Origin: a virus
Length of the DNA stretch: 36,643 bases
Direction: 5' to 3' (one strand)
Virus record (IMG/VR): IMGVR_UViG_3300027963_000165
Span: 1 to 36,643 of that record
This document shows, piece by piece, positions 766 through 36,527 of this stretch. Position numbers and translations under genes: made by a program. A model generated the notes under the pieces. It had not been told where the DNA came from. It made no database searches and saw nothing but the letters and a program-made list of their open reading frames with translations. Each line of letters begins with the position of its first letter. Position 1 is the stretch's first letter.

Positions 766-2547
766 TTATCGGGAGGGTGATATACCTTGTTGTTCCTGCC
801 TGTATCGGTCAATAAAAGATTGCACGTTGCTACCAGCAAGGCCACCGGAAGGGCCACCAGACTTAGCTAGAAATAACGATAGATTACTTGGAACATTAGT
901 TCTATATTGAGCGCGACTCAATCCTTGCTGGATAAACGATGGAACGCCACCACCTTCTCCCGTAAGCATTCTAGAGGCAGCATTGGTCACTCCTTGACCC
1001 GCCAATCCACCAGCAACAGTAAGCCCAGCAGATTCACCAGCAGGAAGCCCAATAAGTCGGCTCAATCCAAGTCCAGCTGCTCCACCAACCGCCAAGCCAG
1101 CTGGCAATCGCCGCGTATTGGAAGCCCGAATCGTACTGCTTGCCGCTTGAATAATTGGAGCAATTTGGAATGCGTCTTCTTGGATGTTCCAGACACGCCC
1201 CATCAGACCAAGATTTCCATCAAGCATCCCAGGCGCATCTTTGCTTAAATTACCAATAACCGAAACGTCAATAGTCCTTCGTCCAGGATTAACAGCTGAT
1301 TCGATTACCGCAAGTTTAGCTAACTTAGGGCGAGTTTGGATAAGACGCTGACTCAAATCAGGACGACCCGCTCTGGTAACAATCGCATCAAGTTGATTTT
1401 CCAGTTTCTGGTATTGAGCAGTTGAGTTTTTAGCCCTTTCAAGAAGGGCAGGAGTTGTTCCCTTGTTGGAATCTTTCGCATCCTTCCAGATCTTCCAAGT
1501 TCTCCGCATTACATCACGCGCATCCTCAACATCATCAACTTTTTGTTTTGCAGCACGACTGACGGATTTAATGTCACCGTAAACTGTTTTGAGTTCTTGA
1601 GCGCGAGCTTTGAGAACATCCAAAGTCAGTTCAGATTCAGCTGGAAGACCGACTTCAAAACGAGCAATTTCACCCGCTTTTATCGTATTTCGGTTTTGAA
1701 TGCTTCTCGTGACTTCATCAGATTCACCAGCAATAGTTTGAAGTGCTTTGGTCGTCTTGCTCGGATTGACGATACGGGGATCGTTAATCCCGCCGATTGC
1801 CTGCCAAGCCAATAAATCACGGTCTCTTCCAATGTTCTGAGACTTTGCGATTGCCGCTGATGCAGCTTCTTCACTTGGTCCAATCGCTCTTTCCGGCCCA
1901 ATGTACCCAGACCGAGGAATTGCGCTTCCAGAAGTTGCGGCACCAGCATAACGAGCAGCTGCACCACCAGCAGCACCACCAGCAGCAGCAAGAGCCATTT
2001 CAGCAGGAGTTACTGAGCCGATTTCTCCAGTAATAGCTGCTGGAGCAAGCACCGCACCCAAATTGGCAGCACCCATTTTAACACCGGATTCAGCTATTTC
2101 GCGCCCTGTTACCTTTGCCAGCTGCCCAGCTGCTCCAGACATCAATCGGGCTTCTGGAGCGAAAGGAATGGCGCCCATGAGTCCAGCCTGCAAGCGACCA
2201 CGCATCGTAGGTTCCTCGCCCAAGCCACGAGTAGTGGCTTCGTAGCCACCCATACCACCAGCAAATCCACCGATTGCAGCACCAATAGGAACGGACAATC
2301 CAGCCGTAAATGGAGCAAAAGGAGCCCCAGCTAAAGCACCTGCTTTTTGCCCGACCGCTGCGCCTCCAGCTTCACCAGCAATTTTAATTCCTGCCTTTTC
2401 GATCTGACTCAGCAAGTTCTCGCGAAATTTATCGGATTCACTCGGAAGCTTCTTGGGAGATAATTTCTCTTTTTCAGCAGCTATTGCCTGTTCAAGCTGA
2501 ATCAACTCATTCTCTTCTTCAGCAGTTAAGGAAGGTGATTTGCTCAT
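766..2547 (-). CDS. Large internal virion protein, glycine-zipper type
   Basis: A 593-residue protein near the end of the virion block. The N-terminus is a charged helix (about 8-55). It is followed by long Gly/Ala-rich stretches (about 55-105, 140-205 and 475-530) with GxxxG spacing, typical of segments that insert into or cross membranes. The centre (about 270-400) is helical and coiled-coil-like. Podovirus internal core proteins that are ejected to form the DNA channel look like this, but no enzymatic domain such as a transglycosylase is visible. The ATG at 2547 directly follows the neighbour's stop at 2549, fitting co-translation with the other core proteins. The role is inferred from position and composition. 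Confidence 0.65.
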   Translation of the reverse strand: MSKSPSLTAEEENELIQLEQAIAAEKEKLSPKKLPSESDKFRENLLSQIEKAGIKIAGEAGGAAVGQKAGALAGAPFAPFTAGLSVPIGAAIGGFAGGMGGYEATTRGLGEEPTMRGRLQAGLMGAIPFAPEARLMSGAAGQLAKVTGREIAESGVKMGAANLGAVLAPAAITGEIGSVTPAEMALAAAGGAAGGAAARYAGAATSGSAIPRSGYIGPERAIGPSEEAASAAIAKSQNIGRDRDLLAWQAIGGINDPRIVNPSKTTKALQTIAGESDEVTRSIQNRNTIKAGEIARFEVGLPAESELTLDVLKARAQELKTVYGDIKSVSRAAKQKVDDVEDARDVMRRTWKIWKDAKDSNKGTTPALLERAKNSTAQYQKLENQLDAIVTRAGRPDLSQRLIQTRPKLAKLAVIESAVNPGRRTIDVSVIGNLSKDAPGMLDGNLGLMGRVWNIQEDAFQIAPIIQAASSTIRASNTRRLPAGLAVGGAAGLGLSRLIGLPAGESAGLTVAGGLAGQGVTNAASRMLTGEGGGVPSFIQQGLSRAQYRTNVPSNLSLFLAKSGGPSGGLAGSNVQSFIDRYRQEQQGISPSR

Positions 2548-7343: not shown

Positions 7344-7922
7344 TCAAGAAGTGACGCCCTTGATGACTACGAAGTTCAGTACAAGAGCTTCGCTTAAATT
7401 TCCAGCAGTGTTATTGCGGATGCTCAGAGTAGCCGTCCCAGCAAGGCAGGCCACGTTGATTGTGTAAGCCCCAAGGGTACCACCAGATTTGTGGTTGATG
7501 ATAACAACGTCAGTAGCCGCAATAAGTGAGTTAGTCCATGTAGCAGAAACAATGGTAGCTGCATTTAATACATCAGCGGCTGTGGTAATTTGGCCGCACA
7601 TCTTGCTCAAAGTAAATGCAGTAGCCTTGCTGGTGGCTTGAGTAATTGTACCACCCGCACCCGTGTAGAATCCCAGTCCAGTAGTGGTCGTAACCAATGC
7701 CTCGTAGTCTCCTGCACCAGTGGTATAGCGAGCTAGGAACGTGTTGTTAGCTGCGGCAGCAACGATCTTAGGCAGCGTCACTGCATTGTTTGCAAGCATT
7801 GAAGTTGTAACTTCACCCGCAGCAATGGCTGCAACCGTAGGTTGAGCCAACAGATTCAACTTGGTGTAAGTGATGGGATCCGTCGTTCCCGTAAAGGTGT
7901 ATCCTGGTGTTACAGATGGCAT
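7344..7922 (-). CDS. Tail-fibre or collar-type structural protein
   Basis: A 192-residue protein. The N-terminal 90 residues contain short polar repeats (GEVTTSMLANNAVTLPKI) of the kind found in phage fibre shafts. The C-terminal 100 residues are rich in beta-strand-forming Val, Thr and Ile (ADVLNAATIVSATWTNSLIA, then TLSIRNNTAGNLSEALVLNF), resembling the terminal domain of many phage receptor-binding and collar proteins. It lies between the tail nozzle and the core proteins. The role is inferred from composition and context. Confidence 0.55.
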   Translation of the reverse strand: MPSVTPGYTFTGTTDPITYTKLNLLAQPTVAAIAAGEVTTSMLANNAVTLPKIVAAAANNTFLARYTTGAGDYEALVTTTTGLGFYTGAGGTITQATSKATAFTLSKMCGQITTAADVLNAATIVSATWTNSLIAATDVVIINHKSGGTLGAYTINVACLAGTATLSIRNNTAGNLSEALVLNFVVIKGVTS

Positions 7923-8260: not shown

Positions 8261-10918
8261 TTAAACTTGGACGAGGTTAGCGCGTTGTCCAGCGCGTGCT
8301 TCATAGCCAACAGACATGATTTTCATGTAGCCTTGCGTGTTAGTAAGCTCCAACCAGCTAAGGCGTCCCTGACGCCGAGTAATGAGTGGCAACCGGTATT
8401 CTTGCAACATCTCAGGCTGAATGCCAGAACCGGTCTGTAGGCCCGTAGAAGGCAGTCCTGGGGTACTTCCTGCAGCAAGCGTGCCCGTGCTGTAATCCTT
8501 GCGGTAAGCACGATTAAAATCGTTGTTCACGTTGGTCAGGTCGTAAGCAGAGTCAGCAAACTTCCAGCTCTCAGACCGACTGTAGGTCTGGTCTGTCAAA
8601 ATCACGCTCTCTTCGCTGGCACCCTCCGTAAACGCTGATACGGACACTTCTGGGCGGTTAGTAGCCAAATCCACAAATGCCCGACGCTGGAAGTGATTTA
8701 CGTTAGAGGTATCGTAGGCACGGGTAATTAGCTGAGTGCTGATTTCAGCCACCGTTGCACCGCTAATGTCGTTCTGGCCTTCATCCGTGACAAAGATCCG
8801 TCCGTCCTCGGTAACTGCGTGCATTCGCTGCAATCCAAGATAATCAATTACCTGCCAGCTTTGGATGCACATATTCAACGTGCTATCAAAGCTCCACTCA
8901 CCAAACCAGTTCTCGGTAGTAAAATTGTAAACTACCACTGCATTGCAGACGAGGCTGTTATCGACGGGAAGCGCAACGTAGAGCTTGTTGCTCCAATATC
9001 CAATGCTGATCTTGTAGCCAACCTTCCAGTTTACCCGACTCATAATCGTCCGAATTTTCGTAGAAAGCGGAAGCGTTTTATGCTGAAGCGAGTTGTTGGT
9101 GGATGTTAGCGTCAGCAGATTGATGTTCTGATTGCTGACGTAGGCCAAATCAGGGCCAATTGAGGTAACGCCGTTAATGCCTACTAGACCCACCTGACGG
9201 GTAATTTCAGTAACAGTAGCGATAGGAACTCCCGTAATAGGGTTACTTAATGCTCCTTGGATGTTTTGAATGAGCAAGATCGACTTGTTCTTAAAGGCGA
9301 TAAGGCTGTCTTGTCCGAATGGGAACGTGGCAACCAAGTAGTCGCTGCCACCTGTATTTATATGCAACTCGTTTGCGAGAGGATCGTAATCCGTAAACGC
9401 CAATACGTCTGATGCAGCTACTTCATCTTTGCCGTCTATCACCCAAAGCCTGTTTTGATAGAAAGTAGCCTGATTGCTATTGGGGATGGACAAAAACGAA
9501 ACTGGCAGCGTCGTGTCTGGAACCAGCGCAAACGTGCCGTTCCAATTGCCATCCCAGTACAGCGGAGTTTCATCTGGCCCACGGAAAATGTAAACGTAGT
9601 TGTTGGCCTGAACAATGGTGGACTGAGTGGTTACTTGGTAGCTTCCAAGGCTGATGCTTTTCCCCGTGTATCCGTTGGCGTAGAATCCAACGCTAGCATT
9701 CCCCAGCATCATAATCCAAGTCTGGCCAATGTTATTAGGATCGGAATAGATGCTTGAAGCGTAGACATTCTGCAACGGAGCACTGTAGGAGTAGAGAGCT
9801 TCGTACGTTCCAAGTGAATATGTATTTATGATAACAGAAGTATTGTTACCATTGGCCAAACTTTGATCTGCTGGAGTTAAAGCTGTGTCTGTAATGTCTG
9901 TATCATACAATATCCAATTAGTACCATAAATTGAAGTAAGAACTACAGTTGTTCGAGTCGCTCCAGAATTTTCACGGCCAACAGCAATAAATCGTCCGTT
10001 GAAGAAATCTATGTCGTTGAATATGTAAGTTGGAGAGGTATATGCAGCCTGAACTAAAGTCCAATTTGTTAAATCACCAGAAATAGCAATTCCACCTCCA
10101 GTAGAAATTGCACAAAAAACATTATTTCCAAAAGTTATTCCAGCAATTGTGCTAAAAGTGAAGAGCGCGTCTAAATCAGCACCTAATGTCCAGGTAATGC
10201 CATCAACTGATGTGAAAAGTTTTCCAGATTTTGTTGTTGCAATGAAAATACCATTGTAAAAAAATAAATCACTAGATTGACCCGAACCATTTTGTTGCGT
10301 TCCAGTTGTCCACGTTACACCATTATTAGTAGAAGTTGTTGGTGTAAAATTAAAGTCATTTGTAATGCTACACACAGAAACCCATTTTCCATTTCCGTAA
10401 GCTAATCCTCTAACAGTAAATGGAGAGGTAGAAGATGAAATGCTCCACGTTAAACCATCTGATGAATAAAAAAGCTGATCGCTACTAGAAGCACCGGCAA
10501 CAAATACGCCATTTGCAAATGCTATCTTTTTAATTATTCCACTAAGAGCAGCAGGAATAGCAGTTTGCGTCCAAGTAATTGCATCAGGACTGGTAATGAC
10601 GCATGGAAAAAATGTAGTAAGGGTACCTCCAGCAACAAACAAATTACTTCCAAAAGTAATGCAGTACGCATCACCAGAAGTAACATTTGTGGTTGTGTTC
10701 CATTTTGAACCAAACGCCTCAGTAGCCAGTTCTGGCAAGCAGACAAACCCACCCCTAGTCACTGCGTCCTGAGACGTGAAATCATGGTTAACGGCCTTCT
10801 GGACGTTACCAGGCTTGATGTTCTCAGGAGCGTTGTACTCGTCTACGCCAAGAAATGAATTATCGCCAACCACTTGAGGTTGGTCATCAAGATTACCGTA
10901 TGCGCGATAACGATTCAT
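8261..10918 (-). CDS. Tail nozzle (tubular protein B-like) with inserted beta-propeller
   Basis: An 885-residue protein. The first ~70 residues (PENIKPGNVQKAVNHDF, AVTRGGFVCLPEL) and the part after ~385 (FYQNRLWVIDGKDEVAASD, then FPFGQDSLIAFKNKSILLIQ) match the usual layout of podovirus nozzle proteins like T7 gp12. Between them, residues about 70-385 hold repeated FANGVFVAG / LFYSSDGLTWS-type blades, typical of BNR or WD-like propellers. The insert is visibly AT-rich: 10081-10140 has 18 G/C in 60 bases, against 30 in 60 at 9301-9360. The core forms the end of the tail tube; the propeller may bind a surface glycan or protein. Confidence 0.75.
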   Translation of the reverse strand: MNRYRAYGNLDDQPQVVGDNSFLGVDEYNAPENIKPGNVQKAVNHDFTSQDAVTRGGFVCLPELATEAFGSKWNTTTNVTSGDAYCITFGSNLFVAGGTLTTFFPCVITSPDAITWTQTAIPAALSGIIKKIAFANGVFVAGASSSDQLFYSSDGLTWSISSSTSPFTVRGLAYGNGKWVSVCSITNDFNFTPTTSTNNGVTWTTGTQQNGSGQSSDLFFYNGIFIATTKSGKLFTSVDGITWTLGADLDALFTFSTIAGITFGNNVFCAISTGGGIAISGDLTNWTLVQAAYTSPTYIFNDIDFFNGRFIAVGRENSGATRTTVVLTSIYGTNWILYDTDITDTALTPADQSLANGNNTSVIINTYSLGTYEALYSYSAPLQNVYASSIYSDPNNIGQTWIMMLGNASVGFYANGYTGKSISLGSYQVTTQSTIVQANNYVYIFRGPDETPLYWDGNWNGTFALVPDTTLPVSFLSIPNSNQATFYQNRLWVIDGKDEVAASDVLAFTDYDPLANELHINTGGSDYLVATFPFGQDSLIAFKNKSILLIQNIQGALSNPITGVPIATVTEITRQVGLVGINGVTSIGPDLAYVSNQNINLLTLTSTNNSLQHKTLPLSTKIRTIMSRVNWKVGYKISIGYWSNKLYVALPVDNSLVCNAVVVYNFTTENWFGEWSFDSTLNMCIQSWQVIDYLGLQRMHAVTEDGRIFVTDEGQNDISGATVAEISTQLITRAYDTSNVNHFQRRAFVDLATNRPEVSVSAFTEGASEESVILTDQTYSRSESWKFADSAYDLTNVNNDFNRAYRKDYSTGTLAAGSTPGLPSTGLQTGSGIQPEMLQEYRLPLITRRQGRLSWLELTNTQGYMKIMSVGYEARAGQRANLVQV

Positions 10919-27942: not shown

Positions 27943-27953
27943 ATGACCACCCA

Positions 27954-28133
27954 ATTTGACCCATAGATTTGATCCAGCAATTTGACCCAGCAATTCGACC
28001 AGTGAATTTGATCCGTGAATTCAACTAGCAATTTGACGGACAGATTTGACCCAGCAATTTGACCCATGAATTTGACCAACGATTTTGACCCAAGATTTTG
28101 ACCCAGCATTTGACCCAGCAATTTGACCCAGTA
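27954..28133. repeat. Array of fourteen 13-bp degenerate tandem repeats
   Basis: Consensus ATTTGACCCAGCA. Units begin at 27954, 27967, 27980, 27993, 28006, 28019, 28031, 28044, 28057, 28070, 28082, 28095, 28108 and 28121, i.e. 13-bp steps with two of 12. Three units are exact. There are no spacers, so it is not CRISPR. It may be an iteron-type origin or protein-binding array, or an expansion of the leader motif found before nearby genes. No gene is convincing here. Confidence 0.85.
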
Positions 28134-28146
28134 GATCAGCTACTGG
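28128..28146. promoter_or_regulatory. Hairpin at the right end of the repeat array
   Basis: CCAGTAG and CTACTGG form a perfect 7-bp stem with the 5-base loop ATCAG, using the last repeat unit as its left arm. No T-run follows, so it is not a terminator. The remaining bases to 28238 form the leader of the next operon. Confidence 0.45.
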
Positions 28147-28238
28147 ATAAGGGTCATGCAACATTTTATCTTGTGTTATCGTCCTGCCTCTCACAACCTC
28201 CCTTCCTCGTCAGTCAACTCAACCCGTAAATTCAGCCC

Positions 28239-28532
28239 ATGAAAATCAACATTGATAGCGTAAAGTCCCTCGCCATCCAAACCGAATATCGGCACGCGCA
28301 TTGCCGCCACGCCGAATATCTCGGCTCTTTCCGCCACCCGCAGCATCTCCAAAGTGCGGATTGGACTCTGCACCTTTATGAGATTTGTGGTGCATTGGTT
28401 TTTGCCACGAATGGCGACCCAGTGTGGAAAGAGTACAACCATCAGGTGTTCGATCAGCTTTTGGAAATCTACGGCATCGATTTGCCAGCCATTCTCACCG
28501 AAGTTAATTCAACCCACAAATCCCATGATTAA
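28239..28532 (+). CDS. Hypothetical small accessory protein
   Basis: A 97-residue protein, first gene after the repeat array. It has mixed strand and helix (WTLHLYEICGALVFATNGD, WKEYNHQVFDQLLEIYGIDL) and several His and Cys residues (YRHAHCRHAEYLG) that could bind a metal. The start context ATTCAGCCCATGA resembles a repeat unit and has no Shine-Dalgarno sequence. Its end overlaps the next gene by 8 bp. Not recognised. Confidence 0.55.
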   Translation: MKINIDSVKSLAIQTEYRHAHCRHAEYLGSFRHPQHLQSADWTLHLYEICGALVFATNGDPVWKEYNHQVFDQLLEIYGIDLPAILTEVNSTHKSHD

Positions 28533-30801: not shown

Positions 30802-31028
30802 TTGAGCTTCTTCTGAGCCTTATGTTCCCGCTTGTCAATCATCCTCCATCTGACCACCTGTCTCCAGTCTCCGGATACCTCATCCCTGACTTCCGTCTTC
30901 CCCCCTGCTAGTTCAACTTCCACTGGCAGGTGAGCAGCGTGCGGCAGGATCCAGTCCGCTTTATTCCATTGGTTAAGTTTCATTCGTAGGTGTTCGTGCG
31001 ATTTGGCTCGGGCACGGTTGGATGGCAT
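30798..31028 (-). CDS. Small basic protein, first gene of the internal minus-strand operon
   Basis: A 76-residue, very basic protein (KSHEHLRMKLNQWNKADW, VELAGGKTEVRDEVSGDWRQ). Its start codon and Shine-Dalgarno-like AGGGG lie inside a strong hairpin (31027-31056), which could control translation. It is coupled to the DUF6321-like gene by a 4-bp overlap. Function unknown; nucleic-acid binding is possible. Confidence 0.6.
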   Translation of the reverse strand: MPSNRARAKSHEHLRMKLNQWNKADWILPHAAHLPVEVELAGGKTEVRDEVSGDWRQVVRWRMIDKREHKAQKKLK

Positions 31029-31056
31029 AGCTCACCCCTGCTAGGGGGCGAGCTAT
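31027..31056 (-). promoter_or_regulatory. Start-codon hairpin of the minus-strand operon
   Basis: Outer stem ATAGCTC/GAGCTAT (31027-31033 with 31050-31056) and inner stem CCCCT/AGGGG with loop GCT. In the minus-strand mRNA it encloses the AGGGG ribosome-binding-like element and touches the ATG. It may block translation unless opened, or be a DNA dyad bound by a regulator. Confidence 0.6.
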
Positions 31057-31302
31057 TGGTGCTAATGCGCCTTGGACTGGGTGTCTGGACGTATTGAGGG
31101 ATCCGCTCGGGCGTGCCAGCTGCACACGGATTGACCTCGGCTCACTAGGTAAACCTACACTCTTATGCCAGCGGGTAATCGTTCTGGCTGCCGATACTGA
31201 GGATCAGAGGCTGATTCCTAACCCACCTTGCGGTGCGGCGGCTTGTGGGCCAATCTCAGCTTGAGGTCTTTGCAGCGTTGCGGGCTGCTTACGCATCAGG
31301 GC
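31057..31302. other. Hairpin-rich intergenic region, possible structured RNA
   Basis: No convincing gene on either strand. Many short inverted repeats occur: AGGT/ACCT near 31150, GCCAG/CTGGC near 31167-31189, CTGA/TCAG near 31197-31213, CCCAC/GTGGG near 31221-31250 and GCAGC/GCTGC near 31272-31288. The density suggests a folded RNA or a replication-related element. Strand and ends are not known. Confidence 0.4.
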
Positions 31303-31410
31303 ATAAAAAAGCCCGCGTGGTAGTAGGCACGGCGGGCTTTCAAACTGACAACTAAAATTGTTTTGCTCGTCGCGGCTACTACCCCGCTTGACGAGGAAGA
31401 AGAAAGTAAC
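31303..31410 (-). ncRNA. Candidate small RNA with two kissing-loop hairpins
   Basis: On the minus strand, hairpin A (31366-31395) has a 10-bp stem with a two-base bulge and an 8-base loop, GGTAGTAG. Hairpin B (31308-31340) has a GC-rich stem, loop CTACTACC on this strand, and a TTTTTT tail (31305-31310), so it also acts as a terminator. The two loops are exactly complementary over 8 bases. A possible promoter lies just upstream (TTGAAA, 17 bp, TG-TTAATT) near 31410-31440. The same pairing would hold in a plus-strand RNA, but only the minus strand has the T-run. Not matched to any RNA family I know. Confidence 0.45.
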
Positions 31411-31458
31411 GAATTAACAGGGGGGCAAGATTTATTTCAACAATTATGAGAAAAAGAG

Positions 31459-31496: not shown

Positions 31497-31515
31497 GAGA
31501 GGCATTCCGCCTCTC
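31497..31515 (+). promoter_or_regulatory. Leader hairpin of the exonuclease mRNA
   Basis: GAGAGGC/GCCTCTC is a perfect 7-bp stem with loop ATTCC, 20 bp before the ATG. Its right arm belongs to GCCTCTCACAACC, which also occurs exactly at 28186-28198 in the leader of the 28239 operon. It could stabilise or regulate the mRNA. Confidence 0.5.
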
Positions 31516-31535
31516 ACAACCAGTAAAAACAGAAC

Positions 31536-35690: not shown

Positions 35691-36527
35691 ATGAGCCAAG
35701 AACCCATCAATATCCTTTCGCTCGGGGCTGGCGTGCAAAGCAGCACGCTGGCACTCATGGCTGCAAAGGGAGAAGTTGGCCCAATGCCACTGGCTGCGAT
35801 CTTTGCGGACACGCAGGCAGAACCAGCCAGTGTTTACAAATGGCTGGATTGGCTGGAAACACAGTTGCCATTCCCAGTCTATCGGGTCACGGCGGGAAGT
35901 TTAACTGAGGCTGTGTTCAAACCAAGAACACATGAAAAGCACGGTGCGACCTATTTTAAGAATTTGATTCCTGCCTTTACCCTAAATCCAGATGGAACAA
36001 GAGGGATTACAGGCCGCGCCTGCACAAAGAATCATAAGCTCGACCCTATGTTTAGAAAAGCCAAACAACTTGGCAGCATAAAACGCGGTCAAAAGACTAT
36101 CGGAGTCATTTCGTGGATAGGGATATCGCTTGATGAAGTTTCGCGCATGAAACCAAGCCAACTCAAATGGGCAAAAAATCGGTATCCTCTGATTGATATG
36201 GATATGACGCGCCATGATTGCTTGCGCTGGATGGAGAAGAATGGGTATCCCCCCCCCCCCCGTTCTGCTTGCACTTATTGCCCGTTTCATTCCGATCATG
36301 AATGGCGTCGTATGAAAAACGAAGAACCCCAAGAATTTGCTGACGCAGTGGCATTTGAACAAAAAATGCAGCAATTGAGAACGCTGGAGAACGGACCTAA
36401 TCGTATGCGTGGAAAACTGTTTCTGCACAATTCACTGAAACCGCTTGGGGAAATTGACTTCAGCGAGGACAAGACCCAAGGCAGCTTTCATTTTCAAAAT
36501 GAGTGCGAAGGGATGTGCGGTGTCTAA
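35691..36527 (+). CDS. PP-loop (PAPS-reductase-like) family protein
   Basis: A 278-residue protein. The PP-loop SLGAGVQSSTL (10-20) binds ATP in the PAPS-reductase / ATP-pyrophosphatase family. AAIFADTQAEP (35-45) is the usual following motif. Cys111 in RACTKNHK, SACTYCPFH (192-200, Cys194 and Cys197) and the C-terminal CEGMC add Cys residues, suggesting a metal or Fe-S site. Such phage proteins are often annotated as PAPS reductase but may serve sulfur or nucleotide chemistry on DNA or RNA; the true reaction is unknown. A 13-C run lies in codons 187-190. Its stop overlaps the next start (TAATG). Confidence 0.75.
   Translation: MSQEPINILSLGAGVQSSTLALMAAKGEVGPMPLAAIFADTQAEPASVYKWLDWLETQLPFPVYRVTAGSLTEAVFKPRTHEKHGATYFKNLIPAFTLNPDGTRGITGRACTKNHKLDPMFRKAKQLGSIKRGQKTIGVISWIGISLDEVSRMKPSQLKWAKNRYPLIDMDMTRHDCLRWMEKNGYPPPPRSACTYCPFHSDHEWRRMKNEEPQEFADAVAFEQKMQQLRTLENGPNRMRGKLFLHNSLKPLGEIDFSEDKTQGSFHFQNECEGMCGV

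Follow-up and report, generated by a model that had tools for sequence, protein, structure and literature searches.

An intergenic region of an uncultured phage carries two adjacent hairpins whose loops are complementary, followed by a run of thymines, and this raises the question of whether the two loops contact each other in an RNA and, if so, what such an RNA might do. The DNA analysed here (the window) is the 36,643-nucleotide IMG/VR record IMGVR_UViG_3300027963_000165, in which the element is located in a 500-nt region between a divergent exonuclease gene (31536, plus strand) and two small genes on the minus strand.

Hairpins, loops and strand in the window

Both hairpins that a first-pass annotation had described, at 31366-31395 (h2) and 31308-31340 (h1), are present (Table 1). 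Read along the minus strand, h2 (31395-31366) is followed by the linker, h1 (31340-31308) and then the TTTTTT that the annotation had also noted, which lies at 31305-31310. Every relative is T-rich at this position, and in the window the tract is found 3' of h1 on the minus strand only. The arrangement expected of an intrinsic terminator, a G+C-rich hairpin and then a T-tract on the same strand, thus occurs in the window and in all relatives. A generic terminator scan of the window did not list h1, probably because of the bulge in its stem.

The loops had been described as a perfect 8-base match. The match is exact, but the 8-mer assigned to h1 (GGTAGTAG, 31319-31326) includes one base of the h1 stem. 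The unpaired h1 loop is GTAGTAGG (31320-31327), and the true contact, as delimited by the relatives, comprises 7 bp (31320-31326 with 31376-31382). Each 8-nt loop keeps its 5' base free. As regards other targets for the loops, their 8-mers have no further sites in the window, which is weak evidence with approximately one chance site expected.

Chance complementarity of the loops had been judged to be small, which depends on the stems. Several other 7-nt matches with short (4 bp) stems exist in the window, and a loop match by itself is therefore nothing unusual. When nine or more stem pairs are required, a criterion set after the site had been seen, this is the sole site, whereas dinucleotide-shuffled windows contain 0.07 such sites on average (any at all in 3 of 60 shuffles). 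We consider the covariation in relatives described below, rather than the rarity of the match, to be the decisive evidence.

Strand was assigned from wobble pairs and the T-tract, which together place the predicted RNA on the minus strand. Changes that give G-U on the minus strand and an A-C mismatch on the plus strand were found in h2 of L012 (L109) and in h1 of L017 (L110) and L114/L116. The plus strand of the window, taken alone, folds into one long hairpin; this fold was rejected as it is not kept in distant relatives. The inverted repeats could form cruciforms and serve as a protein-binding or replication element at the DNA level. We regard a DNA element instead of an RNA as highly improbable, given that the wobbles are specific to the minus strand, the T-tract is one-sided, and the loops change freely while staying paired.

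Table 1. Features of the kissing-loop element and its surroundings (window coordinates).
Feature	Position	Strand	Basis and remarks
Predicted ~103-nt RNA	31303..31405	-	5' tail, h2, linker, terminator hairpin h1; covariation on A3 and A5; both ends inferred from sequence
Hairpin h2, CTCGTC-aa-GCGG-[GGTAGTAG]-CCGC-GACGAG	31366..31395	-	Sequence; U-G wobble on minus strand in L012 (A-C on plus); G-C to U-A double change (GCGG/CCGC to GCTG/CAGC) in relatives
h2 loop, 7 nt of kissing helix, GTAGTAG on minus strand	31376..31382	-	Paired in every relative with the loop of h1; double changes at 4 of 7 pairs
Linker	31341..31365	-	CAATTTTAGTnGTCAGTTTG conserved in close relatives, other sequence elsewhere
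Hairpin h1 (terminator stem), AAAGCCCGC-c-GTG-[CCTACTAC]-CAC-GCGGGCTTT	31308..31340	-	Double changes A-U to C-G, U-A to A-U, C-G to A-U; G-U on minus strand in L017
h1 loop, 7 nt of kissing helix, CTACTAC on minus strand	31320..31326	-	Covariation on A5
T-tract TTTTTT, intrinsic-terminator-like end	31305..31310	-	Sequence; T-rich tract in all relatives
Candidate sigma-70-like promoter TTGAAA-17-TTAATT, weak -10	31412..31440	-	By eye; conserved in five close relatives
Separate conserved structured RNA, ~200 nt	30998..31195	-	RNAalifold double changes and minus-strand U-G pairs; model R2
Variable domain between the two RNAs	31196..31299	-	Type A in window; type B (GGTGAGCGACCACCCTAACnGGGAGTCCTGCCAC) in other relatives

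Covariation and genomic context in the window's phage group

A terminase search placed the window in an uncultured phage group represented by many partial contigs. We built a covariance model of the minus-strand element (R1) from the window and four close relatives, and it matched further contigs with scores from 147 bits down to ~19 bits. Inspection of each weak match by eye showed h2, h1 and a T-rich tail, with complementary loops, all on one strand. Scanning 2.9 million viral contigs with a loop-relaxed pattern gave nine contigs, every one from the window's phage group and one of them new. An exact 17-mer of h1 was discarded as a probe, its matches among viral contigs being mostly unrelated. 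The element is carried by the window and 13 contigs (L108, L109, L107, L110, L111, L122, L112, L113, L114, L115, L116, L117, and L282), among which L112/L113 and L116/L117 are near-identical pairs.

Six distinct loop pairs occur in this group, each perfectly self-complementary: GTAGTAG/CTACTAC (window, L108), GTTGCAG/CTGCAAC (L109, L107), ATACGAG/CTCGTAT (L110), GTAGAAG/CTTCTAC (L111, L122, L116/117), GTAAGAG/CTCTTAC (L112/113, L114, L115), and the wholly different CTAGCGGA/TCCGCTAG of L282, located upstream of the neighboring ~200-nt RNA. On alignment A5 (11 sequences), all 77 cells of the seven-pair kissing helix are paired, a count that overstates independent events since these are metagenomic contigs and some are near-duplicates. 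The covariation score of the whole structure on A5 is 0.387, vs. 0.02-0.05 for slid partners. On A3, 8 of 30 pairs are changed on both sides (score 0.313 vs. 0.01-0.06 slid). The stems covary as well: GTG/CAC becomes GAG/CTC in h1, an A-U pair at the h1 base becomes C-G, and GCGG/CCGC becomes GCTG/CAGC in h2. The outer stem of h2 is poorly kept in L017.

The loops differ among viruses yet always change together, which argues that the contact is real. Complementarity ends at the loop: the flanks do not pair in L114 or L116, nor in the second phage group described below. This pattern speaks for a kissing contact over a single long hairpin or an inverted repeat that is decaying. In the window itself, 78% of the 23 nt in the arms 31315-31337 and 31365-31387 are complementary, as might arise by chance or from inverted copies evolving in concert through gene conversion or template switching, with pairing that has no function. 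This origin is barely credible given that distant relatives match in the loop bases only while their flanks differ, that the stems covary separately, and that a second phage group has the same design. We conclude from these comparisons that the predicted hairpins are real and that the loop match is under selection. The covariation search of related phage genomes with an RNA structure model, which the first-pass annotation had proposed, thus found covarying loops and stems; loop changes without compensation, which would have spoken against the contact, were looked for in the relatives and not seen. The proposal of a kissing-loop RNA transcribed from the minus strand and ending in a terminator is strongly supported by the compensatory loop changes, the minus-only wobbles and the kept T-tract. 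With two hairpins, pairing loops and compensatory change, the element can be assigned, as judged from the alignments, to the kissing-loop structural class.

The same annotation had suggested a small RNA antisense to the plus-strand leader of the exonuclease operon. The element does lie opposite the 5' side of the exonuclease gene in the window and its close relatives. However, it is kept where the adjacent gene differs, independently of its neighbor, and stands beside non-exonuclease genes in L107/L010, L111, L122, L114, and L116, so that this reading loses support. In addition, the element is more than 120 nt from the exonuclease start codon in a divergent arrangement, and full antisense pairing would not need self-complementary loops. 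An antisense role is thus very unlikely. The start of the divergent early gene is distant enough for its promoter to be located outside the element. On the minus strand, the candidate promoter in Table 1 was not listed by a consensus promoter scan of the window. Just before the first early gene, at 31498-31533 (plus strand), we observed a conserved hairpin, GAGAGGC-ATTCC-GCCTCTC, followed by ACAACCAGTAAAAACAGA; this hairpin is kept even in L010, where the first early gene differs. Elsewhere in the window, a short ATTTGACCCA-type repeat array at 27950-28150 (plus strand) lies upstream of the gene at 28239 and is possibly an origin or iteron array.

The ~200-nt RNA predicted downstream of the element has 46 pairs by RNAalifold, of which 8 are doubly changed, with U-G pairs on the minus strand. 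It has no Rfam match, and its 5' domain is interchangeable between types A and B. Model R2, which describes this RNA, matched 13 contigs, three of them without an R1 match. One of these three (G016, L282) revealed the divergent kissing pair noted above; in the others (G013, G007) no kissing element is recognizable beside the ~200-nt RNA, and the kissing element is therefore not indispensable. Conversely, the kissing element of L107 and L114 is not accompanied by the ~200-nt RNA. As each occurs alone, the two are separate modules, usually found next to each other. In L114, a different structured-looking noncoding block (1200-1500, minus strand) replaces the ~200-nt RNA downstream of the kissing element.

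The same design in a second phage group

A second group of phages with this design was found with a loose pattern followed by a filter for a complementary partner. Its layout comprises a P0 hairpin (GCC-GAAA-GGC), an h2 of the form CGCTG-[GGTAGGAG]-CAGCG, an A+T-rich linker, a long terminator hairpin (h1) with the loop ACTCCTAC or TCTGCTAC, and a T-tract. A tighter pattern recovered 22 viral contigs, and the loops are complementary in all 22. Compensated loop variants include GTAGGAG/CTCCTAC and GTAGCAG/CTGCTAC, and stem variants are also compensated. In a 12-sequence alignment, 348 of 348 structure cells pair, and P0, the kiss and the terminator stem each contain double changes. A model of the second group built without the window group (R3) gave weak but in-place matches to window-group contigs G032, G004, and G020 (E 0.01-0.08). 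The same model found no match in 295 genomes of Bacteroidota classes, an empty result that shows little as the search had no positive control.

The second-group RNA lies 23-62 nt after an upstream gene on the same strand and is present once per contig in the 15 contigs searched. Directly 5' of it, most contigs have the motif TAnnTTTG, which we take to be the Bacteroidota -7 element. At least six different genes begin 9-37 nt past the terminator stem. The internal loop of h1 (A8 columns 63-66 and 81-83) is an invariant AGUA/GAA resembling the G-bulged (sarcin-ricin) motif, and the 5' end carries an invariant hairpin with a GAAA tetraloop. Together these suggest, on sequence grounds, further tertiary structure in the second-group RNA.

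Four contigs have a second leader on the plus strand (G048 at 7587, G045 at 786, G052 at 9094, and G046 at 35874), with a promoter-proximal hairpin set, a GAAA tetraloop and a T-tract. It lies 340-590 nt after the first RNA and overlaps a conserved short ORF (MENLKQAPLGVPVQF...). The gene that follows it has a homologue that follows the first RNA type in L194/L235. A 7-nt match is present in this second leader, which we did not count as another kissing case because the match is invariant and inside the short ORF.

Known RNA systems and possible modes of action

At the gathering threshold, Rfam 15 has no match in the window; the best sub-threshold match is ar14 (25.4 vs. 58.8 bits). The relatives and the second group gave only weak terminator-like matches to Rfam at gathering and relaxed thresholds, and GOLLD/ROOL covariance models had no match in the window or its relatives. 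Phage GenBank records gave no DNA match and only distant terminases, and a search for tRNAs found none. A single match in a collection of 85,000 genomes, in Hymenobacter, is inside a coding gene with non-complementary loops and was set aside as a chance match. Literature searches on kissing-loop phage small RNAs returned nothing.

Several phage RNAs share traits with the element. The lambda OOP RNA and the lambda 6S (pR'-tR') leader RNA are short phage RNAs ending at a terminator beside a phage operon; they are alike in this respect, although we know of no kissing loops in either, and neither has a sequence or family match here. In HK022, the put RNA antiterminators form a pair of neighboring hairpins within a phage leader close to the promoter. 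They resemble the element, by description alone, in their paired hairpins, whereas to our knowledge they have neither the kissing loops nor the built-in terminator seen here. The C4 antisense RNA of P1/P7 (Rfam C4, c4-a1b1) is likewise a small phage RNA with a defined structure that works by loop pairing, and no Rfam model matches the element. The phi29 pRNA has two mutually complementary loops on one RNA that covary among phages, as here, but its contacts are intermolecular and serve the packaging motor, and here again there is no Rfam match.

Similar loop-loop kissing of ~6-7 bp occurs in the antisense RNAs that control plasmid copy number (ColE1 RNA I/RNA II; pT181, pIP501, pMV158), and in pT181 and pIP501 it is linked to a terminator, as in the element. 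In the plasmids, however, the loops belong to two RNAs read from opposing strands and owe their complementarity to that origin, while here they are on one RNA and are kept complementary by compensatory change. GOLLD and ROOL are phage-borne structured RNAs with covarying kissing loops and unknown function (PMC12286853). The likeness extends to being phage-borne, structured and equipped with kissing loops, but GOLLD and ROOL are ~650-800 nt or more (PMC12286853), compared with ~100 nt and a terminal terminator here. By the tests made, the element is not a member of the plasmid antisense or GOLLD/ROOL groups.

The element is probably a stand-alone, promoter-to-terminator phage RNA of ~100 nt on the minus strand (predicted ends ~31405 and 31303) that acts through its shape. 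Structure, strand, conservation and independence from the adjacent gene are established by the sequence comparisons; expression, ends and function are predicted. In the RNA transcribed from this strand, the two loops would kiss over 7 bp and tie h2 to h1. As h1 would double as the intrinsic terminator, the fold would be completed as transcription ends, and the kiss would lock it as termination completes. The kiss is most likely intramolecular, since the loops drift together among phages and stay self-complementary. Kissing between copies, giving dimers, chains or rings via h1-h2 as in phi29 pRNA or GOLLD/ROOL, is improbable: an RNA that carries two complementary loops is able to pair in trans, and the covariation test is blind to cis vs. 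trans, but the linker should let the loops meet in cis at a far higher local concentration, and nothing in the sequence demands an oligomer. We infer the function from shape and position only. Most likely, a compact RNA from the early region would bind a protein or RNA polymerase by its shape and not pair with one fixed target; alternatively, such a shape, placed where a transcription unit begins, might gate read-through downstream.

The latter possibility is the main rival to a stand-alone RNA. Here the element would be a conditional terminator (attenuator) in a leader that starts just upstream of h2, with the kiss helping or hindering termination at 31305 and read-through reaching the downstream RNA or gene. 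In the second group, with TAnnTTTG at the 5' edge and the next gene so close, another promoter would hardly fit; the genes behind the element differ, and in four contigs a second, similar leader precedes a related gene. In the window's group, an ORF of L107 starts right at the T-tract, and the next conserved block begins within tens of bases. Against this, the window, L111, and L122 have few or no same-strand genes before convergent ones, we found no conserved antiterminator pairing, distant relatives do not retain the long alternative hairpin, and G013 and G007 have the downstream ~200-nt RNA but no recognizable kissing element. On balance, we consider attenuation rather unlikely.

Whether the RNA stands alone or leads a transcript, the two groups offer a clear case, from sequence only, of a selected tertiary RNA contact in uncultured phages, in which the contact partner is the terminator hairpin itself. 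We tentatively propose that they represent a previously undescribed class of phage leader RNA, present in at least two uncultured phage groups, in which an upstream hairpin kisses the terminator loop and either sets termination or makes a locked structural ligand, while the loop codes diverge freely. The neighboring ~200-nt RNA would be a second structured RNA in the same intergenic region with no match in Rfam, and both could be tested in a plasmid reporter, with no need for the phage. If the kiss does gate termination, it would be a new control of early phage transcription, and the phages would provide a natural set of diverged loop pairs.
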